A DNA stretch of 37,142 nt. Origin: Sporichthya brevicatena (lineage in GTDB: Bacteria > Actinomycetota > Actinomycetes > Sporichthyales > Sporichthyaceae). This document shows positions 4,956-18,735 of this stretch, piece after piece. Below the pieces are notes generated by a model. The model saw nothing but the letters and a program-made list of their open reading frames with translations, was not told where the DNA came from and ran no database searches. The position numbers and the translations under genes are program-made. Location of the stretch: positions 47,475 through 84,616 of the forward strand of contig NZ_BAAAHE010000008.1 of NCBI RefSeq assembly GCF_039525035.1. Direction: 5' to 3'. Numbering within the stretch: position 1 is the first letter of the stretch; each line of letters begins with the position of its first letter.

Positions 4956-6167
4956 CTACTGCTTGTAGGTCTCGAGGAAGCGGCCGATGCGGGTGATCGC
5001 CTCGCGGAGGTCGTCGACGTGGGGGAGCGTGACGATCCGGAGGTGGTCCGGACGCGGCCAGTTGAAGCCGCGCCCCTGGACGAGCAGGATCCGCTCGCTG
5101 CGGAGCAGGTCGAGGCACAGGCGCTCGTCGTCGACGATCGGGTGGACCTTCGGGTCGATCCGCGGGAAGCAGTACAGCGCGCCCTTCGGCTTCACGCAGG
5201 AGACGCCGGGGATCTGGTTGAGCATCTCGTAGCAGACGTCGCGCTGCTCCATCAGGCGTCCGCCCGGCAGCACCAGGTCGTCGACGCCGTGGGCCGCGGA
5301 CAGGGCGGTCTGGATCGCCCACTGCGACGGGACGTTCGCGCACAGGCGCATGTTCGCGAGGACCTGCATGCCCTCGAGGTAGCTGCGGGCGTGCTGGCGT
5401 GGACCGGTGACGACGGCCCAGCCGGAGCGGAAGCCCGCCATCCGGTAGACCTTGCTCAGGCCGCCGAAGGTGATCGTGAGGACGTCGTCGGCGAGCGACG
5501 CGGCGGGGACGTGGACCGCGTCGTCGTAGAGGATCCGGTCGTAGATCTCGTCGGCGAACACGATGAGGTTGTGCCGGCGCGCGATCGCGAGCAGGTCCTC
5601 GAGCAGGTCGCGGGAGTACACCGCGCCCGTCGGGTTGTTCGGGTTGATGATCACGATCGCCTTGGTCTTGGCGGTGATCTTGGCCTCGACGTCGGCGAGG
5701 TCCGGCATCCAGTCGGCTTCCTCGTCGCAGAGGTAGTGCACCGGCCGGCCGCCGCACAGGGACGTGATCGCCGTCCACAGCGGGTAGTCCGGCGCCGGGA
5801 TCAGCACCTCGTCGCCGGTGTTCAGCAGCGCCTGCAGGCACATCGCGATGAGCTCGGAGACACCGTTGCCGAGGTAGATCTGGTCGACGTCGATGTCCGC
5901 AATGCCCTGATTCGCGTAGTACTGCGCGACGGCGGTGCGTGCGGAGAAGATGCCCTTGGAGTCGCTGTACCCGGCGGCGGCGGGCAGGTTCCGCACGATC
6001 GCCTGGAGGATGTCGTCCGGGGCCTCGAAGCCGAACGGGGCCGGGTTGCCGATGTTCAGCTTGAGGATCCGGTGGCCGGTCTGCTCGAGACGCATCGCCT
6101 CTTCGAGCACCGGGCCACGCACGTCGTAGGCGACGTTCGCGAGCTTGCTGGACTGAATGATCTCCAC
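4956..6167 (-). CDS. alaA: Alanine aminotransferase, AlaA-type, PLP-dependent
   Basis: Class I/II aminotransferase expected to interconvert pyruvate/glutamate with alanine/2-oxoglutarate in the cytoplasm. It closely resembles E. coli AlaA from memory: the N-terminal SSKLANVAYDVRGPV, LKLNIGNPAPFGF, GNGVSELI, PAPDYPLWTA, NPNNPTGAVYS, FADEIYDRILYDD and the PLP lysine in GGLSKVYRMAG (Lys239), then CVKPKGALYCFP and the C-terminal RIVTLPHVDDL. Length, 403 aa, matches the family at about 405. I chose the GTG at 6167 because the homologous N-terminus begins a few residues later and a TACACT -10 box lies exactly 6 nt upstream, indicating a leaderless mRNA. In-frame sequence further upstream looks non-coding. 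It is convergent with the unknown 4057 gene and divergent from the flavodoxin-like gene. Confidence 0.94.
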   Translation of the reverse strand: MEIIQSSKLANVAYDVRGPVLEEAMRLEQTGHRILKLNIGNPAPFGFEAPDDILQAIVRNLPAAAGYSDSKGIFSARTAVAQYYANQGIADIDVDQIYLGNGVSELIAMCLQALLNTGDEVLIPAPDYPLWTAITSLCGGRPVHYLCDEEADWMPDLADVEAKITAKTKAIVIINPNNPTGAVYSRDLLEDLLAIARRHNLIVFADEIYDRILYDDAVHVPAASLADDVLTITFGGLSKVYRMAGFRSGWAVVTGPRQHARSYLEGMQVLANMRLCANVPSQWAIQTALSAAHGVDDLVLPGGRLMEQRDVCYEMLNQIPGVSCVKPKGALYCFPRIDPKVHPIVDDERLCLDLLRSERILLVQGRGFNWPRPDHLRIVTLPHVDDLREAITRIGRFLETYKQ

Positions 6168-6179
6168 CGCCCGAGTGTA
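6168..6179 (-). promoter_or_regulatory. Leaderless -10 box of the aminotransferase gene
   Basis: TACACT (6174-6179 on the minus strand) is followed by 6 nt and then the GTG start, so transcription should begin at or next to the start codon. No convincing -35 box is visible. Confidence 0.55.
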
Positions 6180-6451
6180 GGACCGCGCCCACCGCGGCCG
6201 CGCGGAGATTTGCGCCGTCCGGGCCCGGGGTCCGAATCGGGGGGTCAAGGCGGCCGCTCGAGGTGCCGAAGTTCCGGACGTTCCTGCTGTGCGTTCCTGA
6301 TGCGGGATCACGGAATTCGTGGCGATTCGGGCGGGATTCTCCCCTCGGAAGGCTCTCGAATTTCCGTGCCGCCACCGATAGATTCGCTGCTTCGCTCGCC
6401 GCCGCACCTACCATCGGCGGCAGTGGGGCTGAACCCATCCGGAGGGGACAC

Positions 6452-6916
6452 ATGTCGGCTCGGGTGCTTGTCGCCTACGCCGCGAGCGCGGGCTTCACGG
6501 CTCGGCACGCTGCCGATGTCGCCAGTGAGATCGCCGAGGTCGGCGGTCTCGAGGTGGACGTCAAGCCGATCACGTACGTCGCGTCGATCGAGCCGTACGT
6601 CGCGGTGTACCTGGGGTGGTCGAGCCAGTCCGGGGCCGGGCAGCGCGCGGTGGCCCGGTTCCTCGAGCGCAACGCCCCGCACCTCGCCGACCGTCGCATC
6701 TGGGTGGTGCAGCGCAAGGCGCCGGGCGAGGGGTCGGCCCGCGGTGGGCTCCGGCTCTCGCGGCTGCTGGTCCGCAACGGCGTCGCCGCCGAGGCGTTCG
6801 CCGGCACCGGCACCCACCGGCGCAGCGAGGTCCTCCCGACGATCGCCCCCGCCGTCCCCGGGCCGTCCCCGGCCGGCGACGAGGTCATCGCCCACACGCG
6901 TCCCATCTCCGCCTGA
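6452..6916 (+). CDS. Flavodoxin-like domain protein
   Basis: Small cytoplasmic protein (154 aa) with a flavodoxin-type N-terminus: a beta strand followed by a phosphate-loop-like segment, LVAYAASAGFTARHAADVAS, comparable to the flavodoxin/HemG pattern (aYaSxxGsTxxiA). Later segments EPYVAVYLGWSSQSGAG, RFLERNAPHLADRRIWV and GTHRRSEVLP fit the order of strands in flavodoxin-domain proteins of actinobacteria. It probably binds FMN in a redox or regulatory role, but the loop is Ala-rich where flavodoxins have Ser/Thr, so FMN binding is not certain. The start is firm: GGAGGGG (6441-6447) lies 4 nt before the ATG. The intergenic region shared with the divergent aminotransferase is 284 bp and shows no other clear element. 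Confidence 0.65.
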   Translation: MSARVLVAYAASAGFTARHAADVASEIAEVGGLEVDVKPITYVASIEPYVAVYLGWSSQSGAGQRAVARFLERNAPHLADRRIWVVQRKAPGEGSARGGLRLSRLLVRNGVAAEAFAGTGTHRRSEVLPTIAPAVPGPSPAGDEVIAHTRPISA

Positions 6917-6942
6917 CGCGACCGGCCCGGCCCGCCGGGTCC

Positions 6943-6955
6943 TAGAGTCGCGGCG
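6943..6955 (+). promoter_or_regulatory. Leaderless -10 box
   Basis: TAGAGT (6943-6948) is followed by 7 nt and then the ATG at 6956. No ribosome site precedes this ATG. Confidence 0.5.
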
Positions 6956-8524
6956 ATGAGGTCGACGGCCGGACGCGAACCCGCGATCCTGGCCGCCCTG
7001 TTCTGGGTCCCGTTCGCCCTCGCGGCGGCCTGGATCGTCGCCTCACCGCCGCACTCCGTCGACGGGCCGGCGCACCTGCTCGGGGCGCGGGCGATCGCCG
7101 ACCACGGCGAGCCGGTCTACGCCCGGTACTACGAGCTCGACTGGTTCCCGACGCCGAACCTCGCCGGGACGCGGGTGCTCGCGGTGCTGGTCGACGTCGG
7201 CGGACTGCGCCTCGCCGCGACGGTGATGCTGCTGCTCGCCGCGCTCGGGACGCCGCTGGCGCTGCGGTACGCCCTGCGCGCGATCCGGCCCGAGTCGACG
7301 TGGCTCGCGATCGCCGCCCTGCCGCTGTGCTTCGGCTACCTCTACTTCTACGGGTTCTGGAACTACTGCCTCGGCACTGCGCTCGCGCTGGCGTGCGTCG
7401 GCCTGACCCTGCGCGCCGCCCCGGCCTGGCGGCCCGGCCCGACGCTCGCCCTCGCCGCGCTGCTGACCCTGACCTGGCTGACGCACCTGGTCCCGTTCGT
7501 CGCCGCGGTGCTGTTCCTCGGGGCGACGGTGGTGACCGGGCCCCGCCGGCTGGGGGCGTGGTTGGCACCCGCGGCGACGGTGCTCCCTGGTGCGGTACTC
7601 AGCCTCGCGTACCTGCTCCACACCGACTCCGGCGACGGACCGACCTGGACCAGCCCCCTCGGTCGGGTGGTCGGGCTGGTCTCGCTGCACACCACGGTCA
7701 CGACGTACTCGCGGTGGGAGGACGTCGTCGCCGCGGTGATCGCTCTCGTGCTGGTGACGCTGGCGCTGGTGGCCCGGCGGGCGGTCCCCGCCTCGGGTGC
7801 GCGGGCCGCGAGTGCCGCGGCGGGGCTCGCGGCGACGGCCGCGGCGGTGCTGGTCCTGGCCACGCCGGCGAGTTTCGGCCTCGACTTCGGCCTGATCGAC
7901 GAGCGCCTCGCGGTGTTCCCGGTGCTGTTCGCCCTGCTCTGGCTCGCCGCCCGGCCCCCGGAGCCCCGGATCGCCCTCATAGCCGCGGTCGCGCTCGTCG
8001 TCGCGACCGGCGCCCTGGCCCTGGTCCGTCTGCCGAAGCTCGCCGACTACGACGACCTCGCCGCCGAGTACCTCGCGGCGGGCGAGTTCGTCGAGCCGGG
8101 CTCCACCCTGGTTGCGCTGCGCTTCGCGAACCTCGGCCCCGATGCCGGCCGCAACCGGGAGTGGGACCCCACCCGGCACCTGGCCAGTGAGCTCGCGGCC
8201 CGCCGACACGCCGTCGACGTCGGACACTACGAGGCGGTCCTCGACTACTTCCCCGCCCGCTTCCGGCCCGAGGTGAACCCCCGGACCGTGCTCGATCCCG
8301 AGTTAACCGGCCTCGGGTCGGTGCCGCCGCAGATCGCGCTCGCGCAGTTGCCGGCGTTGGCGCCGGTCTACGTCCTCGTCGTGGGTGCGGCGGACGCCTC
8401 CGGCCCGGCGGCGCACGTGCTGGAGGAGACGCGGTTGGTGCTGGCGCGGCACTTCGAGAAGGTCGGCACGACCGGGCGCGGGCTGGTCGAGGTCTGGCGC
8501 TCGGTACCGGCGGGTTCGGGATAG
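6956..8524 (+). CDS. Polytopic membrane protein, possible GT-C glycosyltransferase
   Basis: Integral membrane protein of 522 aa with about ten hydrophobic helices (residues about 10-350) and a soluble C-terminal domain of about 165 residues. An acidic motif, SVDGPAHLLGA with Asp36 and His40, falls in the first extracytoplasmic loop after helix 1. That is where GT-C enzymes, which use lipid-phosphate sugars, carry their catalytic Asp. I therefore infer, without certainty, a lipid-linked sugar transferase or related envelope enzyme. The C-terminal domain shows regular alpha/beta character (STLVALRFANLG, VYVLVVGAADA) as in other GT-C-like proteins. The start is set by the leaderless -10 box. The TAG stop (8522-8524) is also the first half of the -10 box of the next gene. 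A sugar or lipid substrate cannot be assigned. Confidence 0.72.
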   Translation: MRSTAGREPAILAALFWVPFALAAAWIVASPPHSVDGPAHLLGARAIADHGEPVYARYYELDWFPTPNLAGTRVLAVLVDVGGLRLAATVMLLLAALGTPLALRYALRAIRPESTWLAIAALPLCFGYLYFYGFWNYCLGTALALACVGLTLRAAPAWRPGPTLALAALLTLTWLTHLVPFVAAVLFLGATVVTGPRRLGAWLAPAATVLPGAVLSLAYLLHTDSGDGPTWTSPLGRVVGLVSLHTTVTTYSRWEDVVAAVIALVLVTLALVARRAVPASGARAASAAAGLAATAAAVLVLATPASFGLDFGLIDERLAVFPVLFALLWLAARPPEPRIALIAAVALVVATGALALVRLPKLADYDDLAAEYLAAGEFVEPGSTLVALRFANLGPDAGRNREWDPTRHLASELAARRHAVDVGHYEAVLDYFPARFRPEVNPRTVLDPELTGLGSVPPQIALAQLPALAPVYVLVVGAADASGPAAHVLEETRLVLARHFEKVGTTGRGLVEVWRSVPAGSG

Positions 8525-9413: not shown

Positions 9414-11534
9414 TCAGAACAGCGGGCCGATCCCGCCGGGGCCGTCGTCGTCGTCGTTGCCGCCGGGGAACAGGCCGCCGCCGCCGGGGGTGCTGCGGCG
9501 CTCGGGGAGGCGGAACTCCACCGCGCGCCAGGTGCTGAACCCGGTGTGGACCATGCCGAGCAGGGCGTAGTGCCCGTCGGGCAGCGCGATCAGGCAGAAG
9601 CGGTCGCCGTGCTGGAGACCGTCCTGCGGCGGCCAGTCGTCGAAGTCGTCGAGGGCCTGCTCGGGCCAGTTCGAGTTCGGCGCGGTCGACGGGCCGTAGC
9701 AGGTCGCCTCACCGAACGGCGTCTGCCGGTGGGCCGCGATCATCGCGGAGATGATCTCCGGCGGCGCGAGCTTGCGGACCTCGGCGCCGGAGCGGCCGGC
9801 CCGGATCTTCTCCAGCAGCTTCCCGACCGGACCGGTGACGTTGAAGCTCTTCAGCGCACCGGCGCGCAGGCCGAGGTTGGAGTCGAAGGTGAAGCTGGCC
9901 TCTGCGTCGACGACGGTCTCGACCGTCGACGGCTCCTCGGTCGTCCGCCAGCGCATGATGGCCTGGCCGCGGCTGACCTGGACGTTGTAGATCTCGTTGA
10001 TCGGACGCCCGGTCACGTCGGCGAGGTTGATCGAGCCGAGCAGACGCGCGCCGCTGTCGTAGGCGACGACGACGTCCGCGCCCGGTCCGGCGGCGGTCGA
10101 GCACTTCAGCACCGCGACGGTGTCGGCGACGCCGTCGCCGGTCAGGTCGCCGAACGTGGTGAAGTCCTGGAAGCGGTCCGGGTACAGCGTCGAGGCCAGG
10201 GCGACCTCGCCGTTGCCGGGCGCGATGCCCGGCAGGCGGCCACCGGCCAGCGTCCCCGCCGGGTGCCCGCACACCGACGGGACGGCGAGCGACTCGAGCT
10301 CACGCAGGTCCAGCGGCTGGCGGTTGCGGATCTCGTTGGTGAGCAGCTCGCGGATGCGGTCCGCGAACTGCGAGACGCGCGGCAGGCTCGGCGCGAAGCA
10401 CGGCCGGATCGTCGACGGGAACGGCCAGGCCGCGCCCTGCGCCCCGATCTCCGCGAGGCGGATACCCGCGCTCTGCGCCGGCGTCCCGAACGCGTCGAGC
10501 GTGAACCGGCAGGACGCACGCAGCTGCGAGAGGGCCTGGATCGTCGTCGACGCCGTCGAGGAGACCAGGTCGCCGAGGGGGATGTCGTTGGCGCGGAAGG
10601 GCTTGAGCCCGAACCACCCGAGGTTCGTCGCGTTCACGACGACGTCGCCGGCGAACGCGTGGACCCGGACGGTGTTCGGGTACGGCCGCAGCGCGAGGTG
10701 CTGGGGCGACTGGCCGCGGAACGCCTCGCCGCCGGCCCGGGCGAACGCGCCGGCCTGGACGGGGAGGAAGCCGCACGGGGCCTGCTCGGTGAACACGGCC
10801 GGCTTGAGCGCCCGGCACGCGCTGACCAGCAGCCGCAGCACGGTGCGCGGCTCGGACGCGGTCGCGCCGACGCCGGTGTTCAGGAGCTCGGCGAGCTGCG
10901 AGCCGGTCTGCGGCGACCCGTAACCGATGACGGTGGTGACCTGCGACCCGCGGTCGCGGCCCTCGACCTGTCCCCCCACCGCCCAGCGCGCGGCGAGGCC
11001 GCCGACGCCGTGCGTGATGAGGATGGCCTTCTGCCCGAGCGCGCTGGTGACGCAGTCGATCGCGTCGCCGAGCGCCGGGCCGATGCCCGGGTCGTCGACC
11101 CAGTTCCCGGCGCTGGCGCGGTAGTCGAAGGTGTAGACGGCGGCGCCCGGGATCTGCTGCAGCTGCCCGATCAACGACGCGCGCGGCGCGGCCGGCGCCG
11201 GACCGCCGGCGCCCATGTCGATCGGGTGCGAGAAGTCGCCGGTGCGCGAGTCGTCGTGCTTCGCGCGGCCGTGGTAGTCCGGGACCATGATGATCGGCAC
11301 GTAGACCCCGCGCCGGTCGGCCTTCTGCTGGATCGGCTGGCCCGTGTCGGTGACGTCGGTCTTGAGCACCGGCGCCAGTTCGACCTGGCCGCACGGGACC
11401 TGCCGCGGCGGCGCAGCCGTCGCGGTCTCCGGCGCGGCGATCGTGACCAGCGGCATCGCCAGCGTCGCGGCGACGGCGACCCCGAGGGGACGGCGCCACC
11501 GACGGGGGGTGGTGGTCCTGCGGAAGAGCGTCAC
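9414..11534 (-). CDS. Secreted alpha/beta-hydrolase (lipase/PGAP1-like) protein lacking the nucleophile serine
   Basis: Exported 706-aa protein. An Arg-rich n-region (RRTTTPRRWRRP) and a hydrophobic core end at a likely signal-peptidase site near ATATAAPP (residues about 38-43). The first half looks like a lipase/esterase fold: VPIIMVPDYHG, AAVYTFDYRASAGNWVDD, then the nucleophile-elbow position ILITHGVGGLAARW. In active relatives this elbow reads xHSxGG; here residue 176 is Gly (codon GGC), so the usual serine is absent. A later segment (TFGDLTGDGVADTVAV) resembles an FG-GAP-like calcium loop, and the C-terminus is Gly/Asp-rich. The GTG start has GGAGG 6-7 nt upstream and overlaps the previous gene's stop by 4 nt, so translation is probably coupled. 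It may be a binding or structural pseudoenzyme; an alternative nucleophile is possible. Confidence 0.78.
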   Translation of the reverse strand: MTLFRRTTTPRRWRRPLGVAVAATLAMPLVTIAAPETATAAPPRQVPCGQVELAPVLKTDVTDTGQPIQQKADRRGVYVPIIMVPDYHGRAKHDDSRTGDFSHPIDMGAGGPAPAAPRASLIGQLQQIPGAAVYTFDYRASAGNWVDDPGIGPALGDAIDCVTSALGQKAILITHGVGGLAARWAVGGQVEGRDRGSQVTTVIGYGSPQTGSQLAELLNTGVGATASEPRTVLRLLVSACRALKPAVFTEQAPCGFLPVQAGAFARAGGEAFRGQSPQHLALRPYPNTVRVHAFAGDVVVNATNLGWFGLKPFRANDIPLGDLVSSTASTTIQALSQLRASCRFTLDAFGTPAQSAGIRLAEIGAQGAAWPFPSTIRPCFAPSLPRVSQFADRIRELLTNEIRNRQPLDLRELESLAVPSVCGHPAGTLAGGRLPGIAPGNGEVALASTLYPDRFQDFTTFGDLTGDGVADTVAVLKCSTAAGPGADVVVAYDSGARLLGSINLADVTGRPINEIYNVQVSRGQAIMRWRTTEEPSTVETVVDAEASFTFDSNLGLRAGALKSFNVTGPVGKLLEKIRAGRSGAEVRKLAPPEIISAMIAAHRQTPFGEATCYGPSTAPNSNWPEQALDDFDDWPPQDGLQHGDRFCLIALPDGHYALLGMVHTGFSTWRAVEFRLPERRSTPGGGGLFPGGNDDDDGPGGIGPLF

Positions 11535-12178
11535 TGTCCGCCTCCGGGTGCGGCGGGCTGCTGCTGGGCGGGTGCGGGCTGGGTCCCCTGGGGTTGGGTT
11601 CCCTGGGGCTGGCCGGACTGCGCCGGGGCGCCCGGCGGGATGACGCCGGCCCCGGAGGACGGGATCGTCGCGCCGCCCGGCGGGACCTGGGCGACCCCCG
11701 GCGGGTTCGCGGCCGGGGCCTGGCCGGGCTCAGCCGGGGTGGAGCCGGCGTTGGCCGGGTTCATCGGCACGGTGCCGACGACCTTCCAGCCGGACTGCTC
11801 CTTCACCATGACCGCGGTGTACGTGACCGCCGGCTGGCCGGGGCTGGTGACGGTGACCGTCATCGTGCCGCCGCCGAGGCCGTCGGGCTGCCAGGTCGCG
11901 GGGTTGGCCGAGACCGTGGACCCGGCCGGGACCGCCTCGCGGGCGCGACCACCGATCGCCGACCGGACGTCCGAGGCAACGAGGTTCGCCGGGTCGTCCG
12001 CCAGCTTGCCGAGGGCCTCCGCCACCGCGGCGGCCTCCTCCAGGCCGGGCTTGTTGCCCGAATTGTCCGATCCGTTGCCGCCGCCGCCCGAGACGGCGAG
12101 GGTGACCCCCGCCCCCAGGACGACCGCTGCGACCACTCCCGCGGTGATCAACTGCGGCCTGCTCAGCTGCTTCAACAC
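11531..12178 (-). CDS. Membrane-anchored Pro/Gly/Gln-rich hypothetical protein
   Basis: I recognise no named domain. There is a short basic N-terminus, one transmembrane helix (LITAGVVAAVVLGAGVTLAV), a Gly/Ser/Asn linker and an exported region of about 100 residues. That region has a small alpha+beta pattern (VTVTSPGQPAVTYTAVMVKEQ, WKVVGTVPMN) like the conserved globular domains of many actinobacterial secreted proteins. A low-complexity Pro/Gly/Gln tail (PQGTQPQGTQPAPAQQQ) follows. I chose the GTG at 12178 because AGGAG lies 4 nt upstream; an ATG at 12208 would add ten residues but has almost no spacer after its GGAGA. The stop overlaps the start of the hydrolase-like gene (GTGA), so the two proteins are probably made together and act outside the membrane. 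Confidence 0.72.
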   Translation of the reverse strand: MLKQLSRPQLITAGVVAAVVLGAGVTLAVSGGGGNGSDNSGNKPGLEEAAAVAEALGKLADDPANLVASDVRSAIGGRAREAVPAGSTVSANPATWQPDGLGGGTMTVTVTSPGQPAVTYTAVMVKEQSGWKVVGTVPMNPANAGSTPAEPGQAPAANPPGVAQVPPGGATIPSSGAGVIPPGAPAQSGQPQGTQPQGTQPAPAQQQPAAPGGGQ

Positions 12179-12310
12179 CGAACTCCTGCTCGCGGACGAA
12201 GCCCCCATTCTCCACAGGGCGATCGGCCCGGTCCGCGCCCGTGCACCAATTGAGACCTCCGGTCACCCGGCCGGGTGGTCACCGGTCGGGCGATTCCGGG
12301 CGCGATGGGC

Positions 12311-12323
12311 AAGACTGCACCCG
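12311..12323 (+). promoter_or_regulatory. Weak leaderless -10 box
   Basis: AAGACT (12311-12316) lies 7 nt before the ATG at 12324, and no ribosome site is visible. The first base departs from TAnnnT. Confidence 0.35.
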
Positions 12324-12941
12324 ATGGACAGCCTCGACGACGTCGTCTCCCGGCTCGAGTCGGCGCTGGGATCGCCGTGGGGGCTGCTCGTCATCCTGGC
12401 CGTCTGCATCGTCGACGGCTTCTTCCCCGTGGTCCCGAGCGAGACGCTGGTGATCTCCGGCGGCGTGCTCGCGGCGCAGGACGAACTGCCGCTGAGCGGA
12501 GTCATGGCCGTCGCCCTGATCGGGGCGATCACCGGGGACCACATCTCGTACCTGATCGGACGCAAGGTCGGGAAGCCGTTCGTCGACCGGCTCGCCCGGC
12601 GGCCCGGCATCGCGAAGCTCCGTGACAACGCGCAGGCCCAGCTGGGCAAACGCGGCGGGCCGGCGCTGATCGTGCTGCGGTTCGTCCCGGGCGGGCGGAC
12701 GATCAGCACGGCGCTGTCCGGGATCCTGCACTTCCCGCTGCGCAAGTTCACCCCGTACGTCTGTGCCGGCGGTGTGCTGTGGGCGCTGCAGGCCAGCCTG
12801 CTCGGGTTCTTCGCCGGCAACCTCATCCACGACAACTACCTGCTGGCGGTCACGGTCGGGATCGTGGCGTCCGTCGTCCTGGCGCTGGGCATCGAGTTCA
12901 CGCGCCACAAGCTCCTCGCCCGGCGCCGTCGCGCGGCATAG
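12324..12941 (+). CDS. DedA/VTT family membrane protein
   Basis: DedA-family proteins are membrane proteins linked to lipid-carrier (undecaprenyl phosphate) or phospholipid translocation and to proton-motive-force homeostasis. The 205-aa product has the family's features: an early VDGFFPVVPSETLVISGG re-entrant segment, GAITGDHISYLIGRKVG, the signature LRFVPGGRTISTALSG (R-F-x-P-G-x-R) and hydrophobic C-terminal helices before a basic tail (RHKLLARRRRAA). Length is typical. The ATG at 12324 is preceded by an AAGACT -10-like box at 7 nt. It lies head-to-head with the membrane-anchored Pro/Gly-rich gene across about 145 bp. Which substrate it flips cannot be told from sequence. Confidence 0.92.
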   Translation: MDSLDDVVSRLESALGSPWGLLVILAVCIVDGFFPVVPSETLVISGGVLAAQDELPLSGVMAVALIGAITGDHISYLIGRKVGKPFVDRLARRPGIAKLRDNAQAQLGKRGGPALIVLRFVPGGRTISTALSGILHFPLRKFTPYVCAGGVLWALQASLLGFFAGNLIHDNYLLAVTVGIVASVVLALGIEFTRHKLLARRRRAA

Positions 12942-17599: not shown

Positions 17600-17611
17600 G
17601 ACCTCAGGCTA
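17600..17611 (-). promoter_or_regulatory. Leaderless -10 box of the 89-aa gene
   Basis: TAGCCT (17606-17611, minus strand) lies 6 nt from the ATG. It is identical to the boxes at 8522 and 31774. Confidence 0.6.
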
Positions 17612-17748
17612 TGCCGTCTCCCTGTGCGGCTTCCCCGGATCGGCCGACCCGCCAACCGGGTGACAGCACCCGGCGATGGCCGAACCCCGTGCCTACGCTG
17701 TCCGATCAGGGCGGTTCGCGGGGATTCGGGCCGCAGTCGGAGGTCGCG

Positions 17749-18735
17749 ATGCGCCGGGCACACCTCGTCGTGGCGATGAGCCTGACCGTTCCCGCTCTCG
17801 TCGCCCTCGCGCCCGCGGGTCACGCTGCGCCGGCGGGGTGCACGACCGAGTCGGCGGTCCTCACCTGCTTCCTCGGCGGCGGGGAGTCCCACTCGTTCAC
17901 GGTGCCCGCGAACCCCGGCCCGCTCGAGGTCTTCGTCCAGGGCGGGCACGGCGGGAGCTTCGGCCCGGCCGACGGTCCGTTCCCCGGCGGTGAGGGTGCC
18001 GGCGTCGGTGCGACCTTCGCGGTGCGCGCCGGTGACGTCGTGACGATGCGGGTCGGCGGCGCCGGTGCGGACCGCACCACGGTCGGCGGGACCGCCGCGG
18101 GTGGTGCCAACGGGGGCGCCCCCGGCGGTGCGCACGGTGCCGGCGGCGGGGGCTGGACAGGCGTGCAGATCGTCCGCGCCGGCCAGGTCGTCGGGCTCGC
18201 CGTCGCGGGCGGCGGGGGCGGTGCCGCCGACGGCGACTACGGCTACCCCGCGGTCGGGCGGGGGGAGACCTCCCCACTCCCGATCGACGCCTCCGCCACC
18301 GAGCCCGGCTGGCGCGCTGACCCGGAGTGCCCCGAGTGCCCGGTCGGGCCCGACGGCGCCGCCGCGCCCGCATTCACCGGCGAGACCGGGGGCAGCGGGG
18401 GCAGCGGCATCCCCCGCGACGGGGGCGGGGGCGGCGGCGGGTACTTCGGCGGCGGCGGTGGCCTGACCGACGCCGAGGAGTCCGGCGACCCCCAGGACGA
18501 CGGCTCCACCAACGGCGTCGCCCGCACCGGCGGCGGCGGTGGCTCGACCCTCGTCCGCGGCGCCACCCAGGTCACCGACGGCCCCTGGGAGAACGCGGCC
18601 CCGGCCGACCCCGGCTTCGGCGCGCTCCGCCTCGGCCCCGGCGCCCCCGCGAAACCCGCCGCAACGTCAGCGGGATCGCGCGTCATAGCGCTCGGTCTCG
18701 CTGACGTTGCGGGGGTGCGGGAGCGCCCGATCTAG
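17749..18735 (+). CDS. Secreted glycine-rich protein
   Basis: Exported protein of 328 aa. The signal peptide (MRRAHLVVAMSLTVPALVALAPAGHA, shown in part) probably ends after GHA (residue about 25). The mature part begins with a short Cys-containing strand pair (CTTESAVLTCFLGGG), then FTVPANPGPLEVFVQGG and repeated Gly-rich loops with alternating hydrophobic strands. This resembles the Gly_rich (ALK/LTK-like) fold seen in secreted bacterial proteins; the resemblance is by eye only. A CPECPV motif sits in the middle. Function is unknown; cell-surface adhesion or matrix are possibilities. The ATG at 17749 has CGGAGG 5 nt upstream. The last 25 or so residues (after LRLGPG) are encoded by an inverted repeat and may be an extension rather than an original part of the protein. 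Confidence 0.78.
   Translation: MRRAHLVVAMSLTVPALVALAPAGHAAPAGCTTESAVLTCFLGGGESHSFTVPANPGPLEVFVQGGHGGSFGPADGPFPGGEGAGVGATFAVRAGDVVTMRVGGAGADRTTVGGTAAGGANGGAPGGAHGAGGGGWTGVQIVRAGQVVGLAVAGGGGGAADGDYGYPAVGRGETSPLPIDASATEPGWRADPECPECPVGPDGAAAPAFTGETGGSGGSGIPRDGGGGGGGYFGGGGGLTDAEESGDPQDDGSTNGVARTGGGGGSTLVRGATQVTDGPWENAAPADPGFGALRLGPGAPAKPAATSAGSRVIALGLADVAGVRERPI
18659..18712. repeat. 14-bp inverted repeat inside the 3' end of the Gly-rich gene
   Basis: CCGCAACGTCAGCG (18659-18672) and its exact complement CGCTGACGTTGCGG (18699-18712) are separated by 26 nt. They lie within the reading frame just before the stop at 18733-18735. The structure could be a terminator or a REP-like element read into the gene. 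Confidence 0.65.

Follow-up and report, generated by a model that had tools for sequence, protein, structure and literature searches.

How does a secreted protein built like a lipase come to carry a glycine where the catalytic serine is expected, and can it still be an enzyme? The question is raised by a gene of Sporichthya brevicatena that lies at 9414-11534 on the minus strand of the window (here, the whole stretch of 37,142 nucleotides that was analysed, from an assembly of 5.2 Mb). The gene starts with GTG and encodes 706 amino acids with no internal stop. The protein begins with a signal region (residues about 1-42), and the single hydrophobic window found in a hydrophobicity scan, near residue 16, is compatible with a signal peptide. 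This is followed by an alpha/beta-hydrolase-like part (residues about 43-408), a domain resembling LppP/LprE (PF14041-like, about residues 409-560, at 9855-10310 on the minus strand) and a C-terminal region peculiar to the Sporichthya family (residues about 561-706), all of these boundaries being approximate.

Glycine at the nucleophile elbow

The elbow consists of T174, H175, G176, V177, G178 and G179 (residues 173-183 read ITHGVGGLAAR). Gly176, which stands where the catalytic serine would be, has the codon GGC at 11007-11009 on the minus strand, within the nine bases 11004-11012 that span the codons of H175 to V177. Glycine is found here in all five genomes of the Sporichthya family sample (two genera, 57-96% identity, with G002 as a genome from the genus of the window), and all of the proteins read THGxGG. 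The codon is GGC in four of them and GGG in one, a silent difference, which means that the residue was retained while the codon shifted. Each of the five genomes holds one full-length copy of the gene; a further match, partial and weak, occurs in G001 (E 0.22) and another in G004 (E 0.03), and a search of the window's own genome gave no close paralogue, the sole other match (E 0.4) falling outside the hydrolase part.

Compared with G001, the window gene has a dN/dS (NG86) of 0.11 over its full length and of 0.04 across the hydrolase part (residues 43-345), and the low value in the hydrolase part speaks against decay. Against G002 the values are 0.30 overall, 0.15 in the hydrolase part and 0.88 in residues 561-706, and between G003 and G004 they are 0.49 overall and 0.46 in the hydrolase part; at the divergence of these two pairs NG86 is rough. 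Judged from these comparisons the gene is constrained, with residues 561-706 the least clear case. The hydrolase part is also the region with the most invariant positions among the five family members (55%, against 41% for the whole protein). The original prediction had described an intact frame, a glycine in place of the catalytic serine and a gene that is not decayed, and it had proposed an alignment of homologues. That alignment was run and bears it out: glycine is conserved in five of five, serine is absent from the close homologues, and both the frame and the dN/dS value against G001 support a gene that has not decayed.

The catalytic triad in distant relatives

The window protein itself is hard to place by database searches. 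No Pfam or NCBIfam model matches it above its cut-off, DUF7379 (PF24096) reaching 14.3 bits against a cut-off of 33 and finding no match at 1e-5 in the five family genomes. NCBIfam names for the proteins of G003 and G004 (E at least 0.004, with toxin names at E 0.14-0.17) fall well short of the cut-offs and were put down to chance. Among PDB sequences the protein has no match, and its profile gives best E values of 0.73 and 1.2. AlphaFold2 models of the full protein and of the hydrolase part, made from two sequences each, have a pLDDT of 29.7 and 32.4. In the full-length model residues 81-205 run strand-helix-strand-helix-strand-elbow-helix-strand, an order that hints at an alpha/beta hydrolase fold and that is less complete in the model of the hydrolase part. 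With a pLDDT of about 30, the fold and the geometry of the triad are inferred from sequence alignment.

Such alignments do find homology to the alpha/beta hydrolase fold across the elbow. A comparison by hhalign with 17 serine-bearing hydrolases, themselves drawn from the matches of the profile, gives a probability of 95.5%, and two distant homologues of like layout score above Pfam cut-offs for hydrolase families. A profile of the hydrolase part has weak matches in 43 of 393 genomes of the class at E 0.05, a count that includes the five family members and some matches outside the elbow. Serine occupies the elbow in all 66 open-frame stretches of distant relatives that align through it, counted over best-match loci (at most 30 per search), where overlapping loci repeat some genes. 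In the phylum, four of 396 genomes have any match at 0.001, the window's own genome counted. One homologue is in G415, a genome from another class of the phylum (E 1.2e-34, model positions 100-508), and it is the only one among five genomes of that class. This protein exceeds the Pfam cut-offs for DUF676 (22 against 20.3 bits) and, narrowly, for LCAT (21.8 against 21). The nearest PDB sequences to it are those of bacterial hydrolases, namely 8xy5 and the lipases 1ys1, 1hqd and 1cvl (E 9.6e-6 to 8.2e-4), and the alignments to 8xy5 and 1ys1 have serine at the elbow, unlike the window protein.

The second homologue comes from a plasmid search, in which one of 72,556 records matched: NZ_CP109227.1 of Streptomyces albidoflavus, with WP_217467262.1, named 'alpha/beta fold hydrolase' (E 2e-10 over window residues 134-298, 23% of the query). 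Here PGAP1 (29.1 against 24.3), Abhydrolase_6 (28.7 against 26.3) and LCAT (25.8 against 21) are all above their Pfam cut-offs, and so is LppP/LprE at the C-terminus (35.3 against 25). When this protein was used as the query in 143 genomes of the class, five matches were found at 1e-10, four of them in family members and one through the C-terminal domain only. A 23-bit match of the Streptomyces hydrolase to one PADLOC model was read as general fold similarity; PADLOC gave no match for the lipase-like protein of the window, its upstream partner or G415.

These two proteins, at 27-30% identity the only triad-bearing homologues of equal layout found, allow the active site to be compared residue by residue. 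From knowledge of the family and from position, their serine, aspartate and histidine are presumably the catalytic residues. In the elbow column the window, G003 and G004 have glycine, and both G415 and Streptomyces have serine. Asp322 (codon GAC at 10569-10571, minus strand) aligns with the presumed catalytic aspartate of the homologues in a GDL or GDI motif; it is invariant in the five family members and in all five rows of the alignment, and would supply the catalytic acid of an active serine hydrolase. The presumed catalytic histidine of both homologues, two positions past a cysteine, aligns with Ala381 of the window (codon GCG at 10392-10394, minus strand), and the column holds alanine in G001, G002 and G003 as well and serine in G004. 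The alignment has gaps around this column, and the histidine fell elsewhere when the longer Streptomyces sequence was aligned; for G415 the placement agrees between the trimmed alignment and one of G415 with the five family members. Across the family no conserved histidine was found within residues 177-423. Of what an active serine hydrolase needs, the family therefore has glycine where a nucleophile (Ser, Cys or Asp) would stand, alanine or serine where a histidine would follow the last strands, and the acid. The Sporichthya family has lost two of the three putative catalytic residues, serine and histidine, and has retained the acid; as the alignments place it, the missing histidine is a loss beyond what the original prediction saw. 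Two other candidates were considered and rejected. Asp297 is invariant in the family and could have been the acid, but the homologues have Ser or Asn in its place, and His424, a potential base, lies inside the LppP/LprE-like domain and is replaced by Tyr in G415.

The LppP/LprE-like domain, the anchored partner and nearby frames

In Pfam, LppP/LprE (PF14041) has no match to the window protein itself. The protein of G004 reaches 21.6 bits, below the cut-off of 25, and the Streptomyces homologue alone exceeds it, so that the C-terminal domains of these two proteins resemble a lipoprotein family that is here fused to a hydrolase-like part. The C-terminal part of the G415 protein has no LppP/LprE match in Pfam; it aligns with the LppP/LprE-like domain of the window protein, and its assignment rests on this alignment to the family. 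The G415 and Streptomyces forms both end at or shortly past the LppP/LprE-like domain and have nothing that corresponds to region 561-706, which may carry a lineage-specific function. Two other frames contain stretches similar to the window protein: a frame of 694 aa with another N-terminal part, at L015 (in G375), has one like residues 407-480, and a small frame of 241 aa that begins like a signal, at L007 (in G007), has one like residues 409-535.

Directly upstream lies a gene for a protein of 225 amino acids (11531-12208, minus strand), with an N-terminal hydrophobic anchor, a small domain and a tail rich in Pro, Gln and Gly. Its stop codon TGA and the GTG start of the lipase-like gene share bases in the sequence GTGA. 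An overlap of this kind (GTGA or ATGA) is found in all five family members, at the first of two hydrolase copies in G415 and in Streptomyces. The partner is present at all four family loci that are long enough to show it; in G002 an open Pro/Gln-rich frame is present with no more than its final 42 residues on the contig. A profile of the four family partners scores the upstream protein of Streptomyces at 23.7 bits (E 1.1e-5 for a database size of 5000), where the maximum among shuffled sequences is 6.8 bits (488 of 500 reported). The upstream protein of G415 scores 11.6 bits (E 0.05, short of the HMMER inclusion threshold), with a maximum of 5.5 bits among the 448 of 500 shuffles reported. By these scores a protein related to the family partner appears to be present clearly in Streptomyces and weakly in G415. 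None of the partners, in the family, G415 or Streptomyces, reaches the cut-off of a family. The N-terminus of the G004 partner contains VAGC, which resembles a lipoprotein signal. The overlap and the conservation of the partner lend support to the translational coupling to a membrane-anchored protein that had been predicted.

Some further frames in the window deserve mention. At 6956-8524 on the plus strand lies a gene for a polytopic membrane protein (nine hydrophobic windows, and no Pfam match at 0.1), which faces the lipase-like gene in convergent orientation, both in the window and at the four other family loci. The open reading frame at 5019-6959 (plus strand) probably only shadows a gene that is read in a different frame, with a GC3 of 0.69 against 0.92-0.97 for the genes that were kept, and its conservation was left out of account. 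The 1131-aa frame at 9546-12941 (plus strand), antisense to both the lipase-like gene and its partner, was likewise read as a shadow (GC3 0.79 against 0.97 for the minus-strand gene); its end is a VTT-domain gene at 12324-12941. A glycine-rich protein of 374 amino acids, with one hydrophobic window near residue 49, is encoded at 17611-18732 (plus strand) and has no match in Pfam (0.001) or NCBIfam (1).

Function after the loss of serine and histidine

A literature search covering titles and the starts of abstracts found no paper on the lipase-like protein or the cassette. In our reading, the protein is quite probably a secreted fusion of an alpha/beta-hydrolase-like part and an LppP/LprE-like domain that was once the enzyme of a cassette with an anchored partner and now serves as a non-catalytic binding protein. 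As far as sequences can show, both residues are replaced, the glycine is conserved, the gene is under purifying selection, the cassette consists of overlapping genes and triad-bearing homologues exist elsewhere. The original prediction of a non-enzymatic secreted pseudohydrolase gains support from the replacement of both serine and histidine and from the glycine in five of five genomes, the lack of activity being deduced from these residues. The starting point would have been an enzyme with Ser, Asp and His whose gene already followed that of a small membrane-anchored partner. Serine would have changed to glycine and histidine to alanine or serine in the common ancestor of the two genera of the Sporichthya family, with the aspartate kept. 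The protein would be exported and held at the outer face together with its partner, which may act as an anchor or a chaperone, and the old pocket and the LppP/LprE-like domain would no longer cleave a ligand but bind it, for instance a lipid, a protein or a component of the wall. It is possible, though we propose it tentatively, that an undescribed envelope cassette of actinobacteria acts as a complex, with a lipid-active enzyme in some lineages and a non-catalytic sensor or scaffold in the Sporichthya family, where the added C-terminal region would give new binding.

Other explanations fit parts of the same evidence. A change from serine to glycine takes a single base (AGC to GGC) and could reflect gene decay or a sequencing error, but this is hardly credible for a glycine that five genomes from two genera share, encoded by two synonymous codons, in intact frames and with a low dN/dS in the nearest pair. 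Quite improbable, too, is an enzyme with a rebuilt active site, in which a different residue takes over or Asp322, His93 or His175 activates water. Asp322, Asp297 and, within the hydrolase part, His93 and His175 are indeed invariant in the family, and the hydrolase part is its most conserved region. Serine and histidine are both replaced, however, and the loss of the aligned histidine together with the lack of a conserved one in residues 177-423 speaks against a nucleophile that has moved but still performs the classical chemistry of a serine hydrolase. Thr174 is no sign of a new nucleophile, since serine-bearing lipases have it as well (THSMGG at L039 and L051), and the HG motif of the homologues near residue 88 is not family-wide, G003 and G004 having Thr for His.

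Decoy and regulatory roles are known for other pseudoenzymes, and a protein that has lost catalysis and retained both its sequence and its partner would fit either role, played towards an active lipase or towards wall synthesis in its own cell. We regard this as rather unlikely, as the own genome holds no close paralogue and so no obvious active counterpart. The ancestral cassette could also have paired a secreted lipase with an anchored immunity or foldase protein, only the role of binding the partner being left in the Sporichthya family. An overlapping anchored partner in three lineages, beside triad-bearing forms too, would fit, but the partner is kept at all four family loci despite the loss of the triad, and a partner that served immunity alone would not be expected to persist; all partners score below family cut-offs, and the second hydrolase copy of G415 is preceded only by the last residues of a partner. 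This explanation is unlikely.

For the preferred reading of a non-catalytic binding protein, the closest comparison is WP_217467262.1. It has the same domain order, an overlapping anchored upstream partner with a related domain and the retained aspartate, but it is about 28% identical, keeps the serine (HSMGG) and the histidine (CNH) and stops after the LppP/LprE domain. Triad-bearing and triad-less forms of equal layout, each with a coupled partner, make a clean pair for studying what a lipase-like protein does after catalysis. The LppP/LprE domain, for which the literature search found no function, is here connected with a secreted hydrolase and its anchored partner, and the role of the domain becomes testable. 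Neuroligin, neurotactin, glutactin and a domain of thyroglobulin are described, in the passages of PMC5943944 that concern them, as having the hydrolase fold with no functional triad and as serving in adhesion or as intramolecular chaperones; the window protein would be like them by this description. They come from animals and are relatives of the cholinesterases. We know of no LppP/LprE domain in non-catalytic alpha/beta hydrolases of the neuroligin type.

It is worth noting that contig C112 of G415 (L121) contains an exact direct duplication of 1172 bases (5118-6289 and 7184-8355), which takes in the greater part of the hydrolase gene together with the final residues of the partner. A complete partner gene precedes only the first copy. 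The copies diverge in the C-terminal domain, which is LppP/LprE-like in one and DUF6636-like in the other (25.1 bits, cut-off 27), and the duplication could be either domain swapping or an effect of assembly.
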